Origin: an uncultured Halorubrum sp.
GTDB taxonomy: Archaea > Halobacteriota > Halobacteria > Halobacteriales > Haloferacaceae
Assembly (NCBI RefSeq): GCF_937146585.1
Contig: NZ_CAKZRO010000025.1
Coordinates: 1-36,232 of the forward strand
DNA: 36,232 nt
Direction: 5' to 3'
The first letter of the stretch is position 1. Every line of letters starts with the position of its first letter. This document shows, piece after piece, positions 30,402 through 35,605 of this stretch. Below the pieces are notes generated by a model. That model did no database searches and was not told the DNA's origin. It saw only the letters and a program-made list of their open reading frames with translations. The position numbers and the translations under genes are program-made.

Positions 30402-30417
30402 TTTAGGTAGACCTAAA
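30402..30417. promoter_or_regulatory. DtxR/IdeR-like iron box overlapping the feoA start
   Basis: TTTAGGTAGACCTAAA is a perfect palindrome with 7-bp arms and a 2-nt centre. The TTAGG...CCTAA core is the pattern bound by metal-dependent DtxR-family repressors (DtxR, IdeR, SirR/Idr). The last A is the first base of the feoA ATG. When Fe(II) is plentiful, a bound repressor would shut off Fe(II) uptake. The family link is known biology; binding here is inference. Confidence 0.75.
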
Positions 30418-30659
30418 TGGTGGTCGCGCTGTCCGAGGTCCCGTCGGACGAGCGGGTCGAACTGGTAGACGTGCCGGACGACGAGTGCCGCGCTCGGCTG
30501 CTGCGGCTCGGCCTCCTAGACGGCAGCGTCGAGTGTCGCCGACGGATCCGCAACGGCCCGGTCGTCGTCCGGCGTCGCGGGACGGAGGTGGCGCTCGGGC
30601 GCTCGCTCGCCCGGGAGATCACCGTCGAGCGAGCGCCCCGCGACGGCGCGCCGCAATGA
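30417..30659 (+). CDS. feoA: FeoA, SH3-like accessory protein of ferrous iron uptake
   Basis: This is an 80-residue FeoA domain protein, a small SH3-like cytosolic partner needed for FeoB activity. The core reads VELVDVPDDECRARLLRLGLLDGSVE (in part), RRIRNGPVVVRRRGTEVALGRSLAREITV, which follows the family pattern of GxxxxLxxLGLxxG and the closing strands. Length is typical. ATG 30417 starts on the last base of the iron box. The stop overlaps the feoB start (ATGA), so the two are translated together. Confidence 0.9.
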   Translation: MVVALSEVPSDERVELVDVPDDECRARLLRLGLLDGSVECRRRIRNGPVVVRRRGTEVALGRSLAREITVERAPRDGAPQ

Positions 30660-32557
30660 GGGCGACCGAGGGCGCGGACCGCGGGCTCGGGTCCGGCGAC
30701 GCCGAGACGTCGGTGGCGCTGGTCGGCGCGCCCAACGCGGGCAAGAGCGCGCTGTTCGGGAGGCTCACGGCGGAGTACGCCGACGTCTCGAACTACCCCG
30801 GCACCACGGTCGAGACGACCGCGGCGGCCCTCGGGTCGCTCCGCCTGAGCGACACCCCCGGTGTCCACGGGATCTCGTCGTTCTCCGAGGCAGAGCGGGT
30901 CACGAGGACGGCGGTCCTCGAAGCGGACGCGGTCGTGAACGTCGTCGACGCCACGCAGCTCGGCCGGGACCTGTTCGTGACGCTCCAACTGACGGACATG
31001 GGCGTCCCGACGGTCGTCGCGCTGAACATGATGGACGAGGCCGAGGCCGACGGCGTCGCGATCGACGTCGACGCGCTGGAGTCAGCCCTCGGCGTCCCCG
31101 TCGTGCCGACCGTCGCCGTCACCGGCGCGGGCGTCGACAAACTGCGCGACCGACTCCCGGAGGCGTCCGCCCCAGAGTCGACGCCGATCGACTCGTACTA
31201 CGACGCACTCCCCGACGGGGTCGACGCCACCCGAGCGGAGAAGACCCTCCTCGTCGAGGGCGACGAGCCGACGGCCCGCCGCGTCGGCGTCCCCGGCCTC
31301 GCGACCGACGGGGGCGACGCCCCGCTCGCCGCGGTCGGAGAGCGGGAGGCCGTGTACCGCGAGCGACGGACGCGCGTCCGGTCGATCGTCGACGATGTCG
31401 AACGAGTCGCCGCGTCCGAGCGCGCCCCCGAGGAGCGGCTCGGCGACCTGTTGCTGCGGCCGGCGACCGGGATCCCGATCGCGCTCGCGCTCCTCGCGGC
31501 GGTCTTCTACGTCATGGGGGTCGTCGTCGCGCAGCGGGTCGTCGGCTACGCGGAAGGGGTGCTCTTCGCCCGGTACTACACCCCCGCCGTCGAGGGGGTC
31601 GTCGCGGGCTTGCTGCCGGCGAGCGGGTGGGCCGCACCCGTCGAGTTCCTGCTCGTCAACGACAACCTGGGGCTGGCGACGGTCACCGTGCGGTACACGC
31701 TCGGCGTCCTGCTCCCGCTGGTGGTCGCGTTCTACCTCGTGATCGGGACGCTCGAGGACGCCGGCGTCCTCCCGCGACTCGCCGTGGTGACCGACAGGGG
31801 GCTCGGCCGGATCGGGCTCAGCGGCCGCGCGGTCGTCCCGCTGATCGTCGGGATGGGCTGCGTGACGATGGCGGTCGTCTCCACGCGTATGGTGGGCTCG
31901 CGCCGGGAGCGGCTCATCACGACGGCCCTGCTGGGGCTCGCGATCCCCTGTTCGGCGCAGATCGGCGTCATCTCGGGGTTGCTCGCCGAGCTCGGCGTCG
32001 TCTGGTGGGGCGGCTACCTGGCGGTGCTGCTCGGGGTCCTCGGGACCGCCGGCGTCGCTCTCGACCGGACGCTCCCCGGTCGACGGGACGCGCTGATCGA
32101 GCAGCTGCCGCGACTCCGCCTCCCGCGCCCGACGAACGTCGCCCGGAAGACGGCGAACCGGACCGCCGCGTTCCTCGGGGAGGCGGCCCCGCTGTTCGGG
32201 GCCACCGCCGCGGCGGTGTCGACGCTCGACTACGTCGGCGCGCTCGACGCGGTGGTCGGCGCGCTCCGGCCGCTGACCGCGGCGCTGGGCCTCCCGGCGT
32301 CGTTCGGCCGGGTGCTCGTGTTGGGGCTGATCCGCCGCGACTTCGCCGCCGCCGGGATGACGGACCTGGCGCTGTCGGCGTCACAGACCTTCGTCGGACT
32401 GGTCGTCGTCACGCTGTTCGTCCCGTGCATCCTCACGATGGCGATGGTCCTCAGAGAGCGCGGCGCGCGGAGCGCGCTCCTCGTGTGGGTCGGCTCCTGG
32501 GCCACGGCGTTCGCCGTCGGCGGCGGCGTCGCGGCCGTCTTGGAGGTGATCGCGTGA
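30656..32557 (+). CDS. feoB: Ferrous iron transporter FeoB
   Basis: This GTP-dependent membrane transporter imports Fe(II). The 633-residue protein has an N-terminal G domain: G1 GAPNAGKS (24-31), the YPGTT switch (47-51), G3 DTPG (66-69) and G4 NMMD (124-127, a change from NKxD that is common in FeoB). A helical linker follows, then the membrane core with GMGCVTMAVVSTRM and IPCSAQIG. These are the conserved gate motifs with Cys, and the residues shown lie in several hydrophobic spans from about 285 on. It is shorter than E. coli FeoB (773). ATG 30656 overlaps feoA; the frame continues upstream to 30485 without meaning. Its stop overlaps the start of a small Cys-rich protein. Confidence 0.95.
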   Translation: MRATEGADRGLGSGDAETSVALVGAPNAGKSALFGRLTAEYADVSNYPGTTVETTAAALGSLRLSDTPGVHGISSFSEAERVTRTAVLEADAVVNVVDATQLGRDLFVTLQLTDMGVPTVVALNMMDEAEADGVAIDVDALESALGVPVVPTVAVTGAGVDKLRDRLPEASAPESTPIDSYYDALPDGVDATRAEKTLLVEGDEPTARRVGVPGLATDGGDAPLAAVGEREAVYRERRTRVRSIVDDVERVAASERAPEERLGDLLLRPATGIPIALALLAAVFYVMGVVVAQRVVGYAEGVLFARYYTPAVEGVVAGLLPASGWAAPVEFLLVNDNLGLATVTVRYTLGVLLPLVVAFYLVIGTLEDAGVLPRLAVVTDRGLGRIGLSGRAVVPLIVGMGCVTMAVVSTRMVGSRRERLITTALLGLAIPCSAQIGVISGLLAELGVVWWGGYLAVLLGVLGTAGVALDRTLPGRRDALIEQLPRLRLPRPTNVARKTANRTAAFLGEAAPLFGATAAAVSTLDYVGALDAVVGALRPLTAALGLPASFGRVLVLGLIRRDFAAAGMTDLALSASQTFVGLVVVTLFVPCILTMAMVLRERGARSALLVWVGSWATAFAVGGGVAAVLEVIA

Positions 32558-32763
32558 TCTGCCCCCGGTGCGAGTACGAGTTCGACCCGGCGAACGGGCT
32601 CGCGTGTCCGCGCTGCGGCGCCCCGGTGTCCTGTTCGGGGCGCTCCTGTGCCGAGTGCGGGGCCTGTTCCTCGCCCGTCGAACGCCTCCGGCGGCGGCTC
32701 GCGGAGCGACTGGCCGGCGAGCGGGGATCGGACGACGACGGCGAAGCTTCCGACGAGTCCTGA
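32554..32763 (+). CDS. Small eight-cysteine zinc-ribbon-like protein coupled to feoB
   Basis: This 69-residue protein begins with GTG at 32554, overlapping the FeoB stop (GTGA). Eight cysteines at 3, 6, 18, 21, 27, 32, 35 and 38 form CPRC, CPRC, then Cys-4-Cys-2-Cys-2-Cys (CSGRSCAECGAC), all in the first 38 residues. The tail is a charged helix (ERLRRRLAERLAGERG) and an acidic end. The first two pairs look like a zinc ribbon. The last four could hold a second zinc or an iron-sulfur cluster. Its place after feoB matches the slot of FeoC in enterobacteria, although no winged-helix is visible. A FeoC-like regulator or Fe(II) chaperone role is inference. I recognise no named family. Confidence 0.72.
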   Translation: MICPRCEYEFDPANGLACPRCGAPVSCSGRSCAECGACSSPVERLRRRLAERLAGERGSDDDGEASDES

Positions 32764-33183: not shown

Positions 33184-34608
33184 ATGATCGACCCAGTACT
33201 CGCGAGCCGGTTCCAGTTCGCACTGACGACCATCGTCCACATCATCTTCCCGGTGATGAGCATGGGGCTCGCGCCCTTCCTCATCTACTTCACGTGGCGG
33301 GACGTGCGGGGCGGCGACCCGGTGTACGAGCAGCTGCGTCGCTTCTGGACGAAGGTCTTCGCCATCTCGTTCGTCGTCGGGACGGTCACCGGGATCGTCC
33401 TCGAGTTCGAGTTCGGGACGAACTTCGCGGCGTTCTCGACGACCGCCGGAGAGCTGTTCGGCGGTCCGCTCGCCGTCGAGGGGATGATGGCGTTCATGCT
33501 GGAGGCGACGTTCCTCGGCATCTTCGTGTTCGGTCGCGAGCGCGTCTCCGACCGCCTGTACTTAGTGTCGAGCCTCGCCGTCGGCGTCGGGACGTGGCTG
33601 TCGGCCGTCTGGATCCTGATCGCGAACTCGTGGATGCAGATGCCGCGGGGCTACGAGCTGGTGAGCGAGAACGGCGACGAGGTGGTCCACCTCGTCGATC
33701 CGCTCGCGGCGTACCTGACCCCGCGGTTCGGCTACATGTACGTCCACATGCAAAACGCCGCCGTCGAGTCAGTGGCGCTGTTCATGGCCGCCGTCTCCGC
33801 CTTCTACGTCTACCGACACCACGTCCGGGGCGAGGAGACGGAACACATCGCGTTCTGGCACAAGACGCTGAAGATCGCGTTAGTCGCGCTGCTGATCACG
33901 GCCCCGCTCCAAGTGCTCCAGGGCGACCTGTACGCGCGGCACGTCTACGAGACGCAGCCGCAGAAGTTCGCCGCCATGGAGGCGGTCTGGGACACCGAGG
34001 CGTACGTCCCGGAGTACATCTTCGCGATCCCGACCGACCTGAGCCAGTTCACCGACCCGCGCGCGAAGGAGCTGTTCGGCATCGGCATCCCCGGCGGGGC
34101 GTCGTGGCTCGCGAGCGGGGGCGACGCGACCGCGGAGATTCGGGGGCTGAACACGTTCGAGGCGGCGGCGCCCCCCGTCGCCGTCGTGTTCTGGTCGTTC
34201 CGCGCGATGGTCGGGATGGGGTTCTGGTTCATTCTGCTCGCGTTCTGGGGCGGTTACCGGTGGTACACCGGTGAGCTGTTCGAGGACGGACTGCTACATA
34301 AGGCGCTGATGGCGTCCGGTCTGCTCGGCTTCGTCGCGGTCGAACTCGGATGGGTCGTCACCGAGGTCGGCCGCCAACCCTGGGTGATCCAGGGCGTGTT
34401 GAAGACGAGCGAGGGGGTGTCGCCCGGCCTCACCGGCGCGGAGGCGCTGATCACGCTCGCGGGGTTCGTCGGCGTCTACGCCGGCATCCTCGCGCTGTAC
34501 GTGTACGTCGTCTCGCGAGTGATCCGGGACGGGCCCCCGAGCGTGCGGGAGCTGCGGTCCACCGCCGAGCGCGACGCCGCGCCGACGGAGGTGCCCGGCG
34601 ATGACTAG
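33184..34608 (+). CDS. cydA: Cytochrome bd-type quinol oxidase subunit I
   Basis: This is the haem-bearing subunit of a cytochrome bd oxidase, which reduces O2 with quinol electrons and without proton pumping. The 474-residue protein has many membrane spans. The b595-ligand His is H19 (TTIVHIIFP). E99 and E107 in VEGMMAFMLEATFLG match the haem/proton-channel glutamates of E. coli by number. H188 in YMYVHMQNAAVES corresponds to the b558 ligand region. The GRQPWVIQG motif belongs to the conserved quinol/haem region. The frame extends upstream to 32974, but MIDPVLASRFQFALTTIVH at 33184 is the family's normal start. The 200-bp upstream gap shows no clear TATA box. It overlaps cydB by 8 bp. Confidence 0.95.
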   Translation: MIDPVLASRFQFALTTIVHIIFPVMSMGLAPFLIYFTWRDVRGGDPVYEQLRRFWTKVFAISFVVGTVTGIVLEFEFGTNFAAFSTTAGELFGGPLAVEGMMAFMLEATFLGIFVFGRERVSDRLYLVSSLAVGVGTWLSAVWILIANSWMQMPRGYELVSENGDEVVHLVDPLAAYLTPRFGYMYVHMQNAAVESVALFMAAVSAFYVYRHHVRGEETEHIAFWHKTLKIALVALLITAPLQVLQGDLYARHVYETQPQKFAAMEAVWDTEAYVPEYIFAIPTDLSQFTDPRAKELFGIGIPGGASWLASGGDATAEIRGLNTFEAAAPPVAVVFWSFRAMVGMGFWFILLAFWGGYRWYTGELFEDGLLHKALMASGLLGFVAVELGWVVTEVGRQPWVIQGVLKTSEGVSPGLTGAEALITLAGFVGVYAGILALYVYVVSRVIRDGPPSVRELRSTAERDAAPTEVPGDD

Positions 34609-35605
34609 CGCCGTCGACGCGCTCGCGGCGGGACCGGTGCTCGGCCTGCCGCTCCCGGAGCTGTGGTTCGCGCTCGTGTTCGCCCTGCTCGGGACGTTCC
34701 TGTTCCTCGACGGCTTCGACTTCGGCGCGGGCGCCATCTTCGCGACGCTCTCCGACGACGAGGGGCGCGAGGCGGTGCTGTCGGCGATCGGGCCCTTCTG
34801 GGACGGCAACGAGGTGTGGCTCGTCGTCTTCGGCGGGGCGCTGTTCGCCGCGTTCCCGTCGGTGTACGCGGGGCTGTTCAGCCGCCACTACCTGCTGATG
34901 TTCGGCATCCTCGGCGCCCTCATCCTCCGGGGGCTGGCCCCGGAGATGTACGAGCAGCGGCACGACGCGCGGTGGCAGCGGTGGTGGGGTCGGTCGTTCG
35001 TCGCCGGCAGCGTCCTCGCCCCCTTCCTCCTCGGCGCGTTCGCGGGGAACTGGCTCGTCGGGAGCCCTCGGTCGCTCACCCTCGTCGGCGTCGTCACCGG
35101 GGTCGCCGTCACGGCGCTGACGGTCGTCTCGGGCGCCGCGTTCCTCCGACTGAAGGCCCGGGACGCGCTCCCGGAGACGGTGACGGAGATCGGCGTCGCG
35201 GCCGTCGCGGCGTACCTCCTCGCGGTCGTGGCGACCCTCGGCGTCCTCGCGACTCGCCTCCCGGCCGGCGTCGACGCGCTGCTGTCGCCGCCGGTGATCG
35301 CACTGGTCGCCGCCTCCGTCGGGCTCGGAGCCGGTTACGCCGTCGCGCTTCGACGCGGGGCGAGCCTCGTCGCGCTCGCGGCGGCCGGGGGGCTGACCTA
35401 CGGCCTGATCGCCGTGGTCGGGCTGCTCATGTACCCGCGTATCGACCCGGCGACGGGAGCGACGGTCGGGGAGGCCGTCGTCTCGACGCTGCCGCTGAAC
35501 CTCATGTCGATCGGCGCGGCCCTGCTGTTGCCGCTGGTCGTCGCGTACTTCGCCGTCCTGTACTCGGCGTTCAGCGGCCCGATCACGGCCGAGGAGGCGT
35601 ACTGA
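34601..35605 (+). CDS. cydB: Cytochrome bd-type quinol oxidase subunit II
   Basis: This is the membrane partner of CydA that holds the oxidase together. The 334-residue protein has the CydB start LPELWFALVFALLGTFLFLDGFDFGAGAI, then IGPFWDGNEVWLVVFGGALFAAFPSVY and ILGALILRGLAPEM. These motifs and the eight or nine hydrophobic segments are typical, as is the length. ATG 34601 overlaps the end of cydA by 8 bases, showing coupled translation. The next gene starts one base after its stop. Confidence 0.95.
   Translation: MTSAVDALAAGPVLGLPLPELWFALVFALLGTFLFLDGFDFGAGAIFATLSDDEGREAVLSAIGPFWDGNEVWLVVFGGALFAAFPSVYAGLFSRHYLLMFGILGALILRGLAPEMYEQRHDARWQRWWGRSFVAGSVLAPFLLGAFAGNWLVGSPRSLTLVGVVTGVAVTALTVVSGAAFLRLKARDALPETVTEIGVAAVAAYLLAVVATLGVLATRLPAGVDALLSPPVIALVAASVGLGAGYAVALRRGASLVALAAAGGLTYGLIAVVGLLMYPRIDPATGATVGEAVVSTLPLNLMSIGAALLLPLVVAYFAVLYSAFSGPITAEEAY

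Follow-up and report, generated by a model that had tools for sequence, protein, structure and literature searches.

An apparently undescribed cysteine-rich microprotein family encoded directly after feoB in one FeoB lineage of Archaea and Bacteria

The feo operon and its third gene

The window, a stretch of 36,232 nucleotides from an uncultured Halorubrum sp., carries a feo operon in which a very small gene follows feoB. Its features, with window coordinates and strand, are:

30403..30416, +, DtxR-type box TTAGGTAGACCTAA, abutting the feoA start codon; one match in the window against 0.03 expected
30417..30659, +, feoA (80 aa); Pfam FeoA, 1.3e-11
30656..32557, +, feoB (633 aa), Fe(II) transporter; TIGR00437, 337.7 bits, above cut-off; FeoB_N, 6e-48
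32542..32551, +, Shine-Dalgarno GGAGGTGATC (perfect), read from the sequence within the 3' end of feoB; the same in Halorubrum relatives
32554..32763, +, FeoB-coupled Cys-rich microprotein gene (69 aa, GTG start), from the ORF, its homologues and dN/dS
32560..32667, +, Cys module: C3, C6, C18, C21, C27, C32 and C35 invariant family-wide, C38 in haloarchaea only
32674..32721, +, predicted C-terminal helix, residues 41–56 (AF2 model, low to medium confidence)

The genes overlap by 4 nt at both the feoA/feoB and the feoB/microprotein junctions. At the second of these the GTG of the microprotein gene (32554–32556) overlaps the TGA stop codon of feoB (32555–32557), which places the 69-residue ORF exactly where the preliminary description had located it. 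The translation reads MICPRCEYEFDPANGLACPRCGAPVSCSGRSCAECGACSSPVERLRRRLAERLAGERGSDDDGEASDES. The eight Cys residues of that description are present, although they span 36 residues (C3 to C38) and not 38, a trivial difference. Downstream of the operon, two large membrane-protein ORFs on the same strand (33184–35605) are read as putative cydAB (cytochrome bd oxidase), with a small membrane-like ORF on the minus strand in between.

Small size and a GTG start could indicate a spurious ORF or an untranslated remnant at the 3' end of feoB, but the Cys pattern is invariant across two domains, and in bacteria the protein is kept even though its distance to feoB varies. Translation from the GTG is supported by the Shine-Dalgarno sequence, by a start position shared with relatives (GTG or ATG, at the same spacing from feoB in most haloarchaeal ones) and by the ATG starts found in many of them. 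Over codons 2–40, dN is lower than dS in all pairs of Halorubrum and Haloglomus copies, with a ratio of about 0.1–0.5; judged by these substitutions, the gene is under purifying selection. In back-translated form, the Cys pattern is found once in the window and in none of 100 shuffles. The ORF is almost certainly a real protein-coding gene, leaving a spurious origin vanishingly improbable.

Distribution in haloarchaea

Among 293 genomes of the haloarchaeal order, homologues at E < 1e-9 are found in 20, each directly 3' of a feoB. The set coincides with the genomes that have type-1 FeoB, defined as the upper group of the haloarchaeal TIGR00437 search, and includes one (G281) whose FeoB match is split. 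Conversely, no good homologue occurs in the 293 genomes without a type-1 feoB. The spread is patchy, with the microprotein in four of 19 genomes of the same genus. The preliminary description had held that absence of the Cys pattern after feoB in related genomes would count against it; the pattern is present in all 20 haloarchaeal genomes with type-1 FeoB. In G281, which belongs to the same genus, the two pieces of the feoB match differ in reading frame; a frameshift may lie upstream of a microprotein gene that is itself intact.

A degenerate DNA version of the Cys motif was scanned against the whole collection. Among the matches listed whose loci were read, all haloarchaeal ones adjoin feoB (Halorubrum, Haloquadratum, Halapricum, Halorhabdus and Haloglomus), and none outside haloarchaea lies beside a detected feoB. 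Unrelated Cys-rich matches, namely Prochlorococcus peptides and proteins of rumen Clostridia, were rejected, none being beside a detected feoB. The Prochlorococcus matches reveal a small C-terminal Cys-rich peptide, VCPGCGCxCPCxCTDCEECSxCKDH, that those genomes share and that is unrelated to feoB.

Relatives in methanogens and bacteria

The haloarchaeal profile finds weak matches in the methanogen family that includes Methanosarcina, eleven of which are short ORFs directly after feoB. Profile A2, built from the haloarchaeal and methanogen sequences together, matches in 62 of 247 genomes of one bacterial phylum sample (probably Desulfobacterota) and gives six strong matches in a Clostridia-centred sample. 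A feoB lies immediately upstream on the same strand in the best 30 matches of the former and in all six strong ones of the latter. All strong bacterial homologues found adjoin feoB. Weak HMM matches in other zinc-ribbon proteins were rejected for want of any link to feoB, and plasmid searches returned nothing relevant. No full-length match occurs in 166 genomes of the class to which a Methylobacter MAG belongs, presumably Gammaproteobacteria. FeoC is the prevailing accessory in Gammaproteobacteria (PMC8749426).

As a guard against circularity, FeoB was also sampled first, independently of the microprotein. Methanosarcinaceae FeoBs fall into three clades: clade III has the microprotein at −4 nt from feoB in 11 of 11 cases, clade I mostly has a winged-helix FeoC 400–500 nt downstream, and clade II has neither. 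Among the 30 closest bacterial FeoBs (probable Desulfobacterota), 23 of the 29 complete loci contain the microprotein. The six that do not indicate that it is dispensable for some members of the lineage; in five of them the next gene, read by eye, is a DtxR-like regulator. The first idea of a haloarchaeal FeoB partner in fixed order is thus corrected in two respects: the family reaches Bacteria, and it is not obligatory there.

A single clade with support 1.00 unites the haloarchaeal type-1, Methanosarcinaceae clade-III and bacterial microprotein-linked members in a tree built from 103 FeoBs, and by its place in the tree the window feoB is a member of this microprotein-coupled lineage. The bacterial tips were picked by their microprotein, so the tree alone is no proof of exclusivity. 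One further family (f44) has a relative beside a FeoB outside this clade, at two loci and, weakly, at a third. Two other observations concern FeoB itself. In a third haloarchaeal FeoB-like group, the match to the FeoB model is confined to the C-terminal membrane part, and profile scans detect neither FeoC nor the microprotein nearby. In one family of a methanogen class (f33), the N- and C-terminal parts of FeoB give separate matches, which suggests that the gene is split.

Iron control of the operon

The motif TTAGG-N4-CCTAA, which we take to be a DtxR-type box, precedes feoB in 10 of 16 haloarchaeal type-1 loci, in 7 of 10 type-2 loci and in 9 of 11 Methanosarcinaceae clade-III loci; tandem copies are frequent in this last group. 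It is absent upstream of feoB from eight clade-I, eight clade-II and 30 bacterial loci. Several methanogen loci carry a DtxR-family gene (Fe_dep_repr_C, 6.8e-24) downstream of the microprotein. Judged by these sites, the archaeal feo operons are likely to be under iron control.

This arrangement bears on the reading of the microprotein as a small zinc-finger transcription regulator that sits in the feo operon by chance. Halobacterium Brz provides a precedent, being a regulator among the haloarchaeal zinc-finger microproteins (PMC2253796). The regulatory role is, however, already fitted by the DtxR-type box and by the DtxR-like gene of methanogens and some bacteria, and the microprotein is linked to a FeoB lineage and to no conserved promoter element. 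Such a regulator is distinctly improbable.

Relation to FeoC

The preliminary description proposed a functional analogue of FeoC that has no winged helix. Of 113 FeoB or FeoB-like loci scanned with profiles, 48 carry the microprotein and 20 carry FeoC, while no locus carries both. FeoC goes with FeoB of haloarchaeal type 2 and of methanogen clade I. The accessory gene is confounded with FeoB phylogeny, so the non-overlap is an association, not proof of replacement. The analogy gains from it to that extent, while family membership fails. The FeoC profile (PF09012) matches neither the window protein nor anything else in the host genome, which is 92% complete, and the AF2 model (confidence low to medium) has a single long helix, 41–56, and no winged helix, bearing out that part of the description.

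The window protein has the CX4CX2C core of the E. coli FeoC motif with a different last spacing. When the family profile is compared with FeoC, only a 12-column CxxC motif aligns, weakly (probability 11%), and the columns fall in the C18–C27 loop alone. Homology to FeoC is not supported, and on these profiles the microprotein is not a member of the FeoC family.

Haloarchaea do have true FeoC-like proteins, which the preliminary description overlooked; they belong to another feo operon. Between feoB and feoC of the haloarchaeal type-2 and Methanosarcinaceae clade-I loci lies a gene for a small, apparently membrane, protein; the one tested matches no Pfam family.

The Cys module and its possible metal sites

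The 19 haloarchaeal sequences share 12 invariant columns, eight of them the eight Cys residues, in the pattern C-P-x-C-x11/12-C-P-R-C-G-x4-C-x4-C-x2-C-x2-C. Over 22 diverse members from both domains, seven Cys are invariant. The AF2 model of the window protein has a pLDDT of about 80 over residues 1–30 and is weak beyond residue 30. An acidic tail follows the predicted helix in the window protein; methanogen and bacterial members have a short cationic stretch of helical character after the Cys module (e.g. ESSLERLIKKWRSK and ETKLIKKLRGMFKWK).

Two pairings of the Cys residues come into question. The haloarchaeal sequences and the model suggest that C3/C6 pair with C18/C21. Alternatively, C3/C6 may pair with C32/C35, these two pairs being the CPxCGY-like knuckles of the methanogen and bacterial versions; this candidate pairing would leave C18-x2-C21-x5-C27 as a three-Cys loop, a segment that reads CxxCPM-x3-C in many bacterial members. 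The microprotein probably binds at least one Zn. The double metal site of the preliminary description is unproven: seven of the eight Cys are conserved family-wide, and haloarchaeal HVO_2753, which has four motifs, binds one zinc only (PMC11241148).

No Pfam or NCBIfam model reaches its cut-off for the window protein or the relatives scanned; PDB sequence and fold searches return generic zinc fingers only and no covering family; and the short Foldseek matches, of which none is significant, are to single zinc ribbons, many being NZF-type.

The microprotein could be a structural accessory only, a zinc-ribbon factor with a redox-inert Zn that serves the assembly or stability of this FeoB lineage and senses nothing. 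The CPxC and CPRCG motifs resemble structural zinc ribbons, with double-zinc-ribbon matches below threshold, and most of the haloarchaeal C(P)XCG proteins, which are related, are zinc binders (PMC11241148). In addition, according to work cited in PMC8749426, Salmonella FeoC shields FeoB from proteolysis. Seven invariant Cys, however, fall short of two complete four-Cys Zn sites, and the iron-regulated context together with the FeoC-like CxxCPM loop in bacteria hints at more, making a purely structural role the less likely choice, albeit one with an appreciable chance.

The soft ligands also allow an Fe(II) acceptor or metallochaperone that takes iron at the cytosolic mouth of FeoB and passes it on. 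Its many such ligands, its position adjoining FeoB and its co-translation would suit this task, but Cys-only sites with zinc-ribbon spacing favour tight binding, and there are no conserved acidic or His ligands. A metallochaperone is improbable.

A proposed role in control of FeoB

The microprotein is very probably a dedicated FeoB accessory. It accompanies one FeoB branch in Archaea and Bacteria and has never been found beside FeoC, which makes it probably that branch's own helper. The preliminary description had spoken of a dedicated partner with fixed order and translational coupling, which holds for 20 of 20 haloarchaeal type-1 FeoB genomes and extends to methanogens and bacteria.

The explanation that we favour, by a little over even chances as a whole, is an accessory whose metal- or redox-responsive Cys module controls FeoB; its metal binding, docking and control of FeoB are inferred. 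In this reading the microprotein, small and cytosolic, would assist one FeoB lineage. It would be translated together with FeoB, from a feoA-feoB operon that is probably under iron control, and so be made next to its partner. At least one structural Zn would sit in the Cys module, which would also have a further Cys-rich loop; this loop may take up Zn, Fe or an Fe-S cluster and react to iron or oxygen. Through its C-terminal helix, which is cationic in methanogens and bacteria, the microprotein would dock on FeoB or on the inner face of the membrane, and it would control FeoB assembly or pore opening, a FeoC-like job on an unrelated scaffold. It is as likely as not that the Cys loop acts as a metal or redox sensor and controls FeoB. 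More tentatively, the full proposal is of an unnamed accessory family that has no kinship with FeoC but stands in for it in one FeoB lineage of Archaea and Bacteria, and whose Cys loop may be an iron- or oxygen-responsive switch.

Research on Fe(II) transport has yet to settle what FeoC does and why it is missing from most FeoB systems. The microprotein is a second Cys-rich partner, of different structure, that goes with one FeoB clade in two domains and never shares a locus with FeoC in this sample. It offers a natural comparison, in which the features common to both partners are likely to reflect the essential function. A definition of the family also lets annotators name many 'hypothetical proteins' of 50–70 aa. 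No description was found in the literature searched, which mostly lay outside subscription journals and is no proof of novelty; within those sources, the family is apparently undescribed.

Comparison with known systems

The Cys-rich FeoB-associated proteins of Firmicutes and Bacteroidetes, which we take to be PF12669, have a transmembrane segment, whereas the microprotein family begins with its Cys module. Pfam scans with E limits of 1, 0.1 and 0.01 give no PF12669 match. The FeoB-associated Cys-rich proteins of these two groups (PMC8749426) share with the microprotein a small Cys-rich ORF directly after feoB.

The haloarchaeal C(P)XCG microproteins (Haloferax HVO_2753 and HVO_0758, Halobacterium Brz) are alike in being under 70 aa with CPxC(G) motifs. 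The window protein has CPRCG once and two partial motifs, CPRC-E and CAECG, to be compared with the four motifs of HVO_2753. It differs in being tied to feoB, in a second half of the form C-x4-C-x2-C-x2-C, and in having methanogen and bacterial relatives; the H. volcanii study of C(P)XCG microproteins does not mention feo.

Double zinc ribbons (PF12773, PF18912) likewise fit four Cys pairs or near-pairs into some 40 residues and are the best sub-threshold matches, scoring 17.1 and 17.8 bits against cut-offs of 27.3 and 27. The spacing of the microprotein's second half differs from theirs, and its eighth Cys is missing outside haloarchaea.

FeoC itself is likewise small and cytosolic, with its gene 3' of feoB. 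Its E. coli motif CX4CX2CX5C, in which the central Cys pair is needed for function (PMC8749426), can be set beside the CX4CX2CX2C of the microprotein and the CxxCPM-x3-C of bacterial members. The microprotein differs in lacking a winged helix and a profile match, in its extra N-terminal Cys pairs, and in residing on another FeoB lineage, never in a FeoC locus among the 113. Small Cys-rich FeoB accessories are a known kind, and the microprotein family is best read as one more of them, built on a different scaffold.
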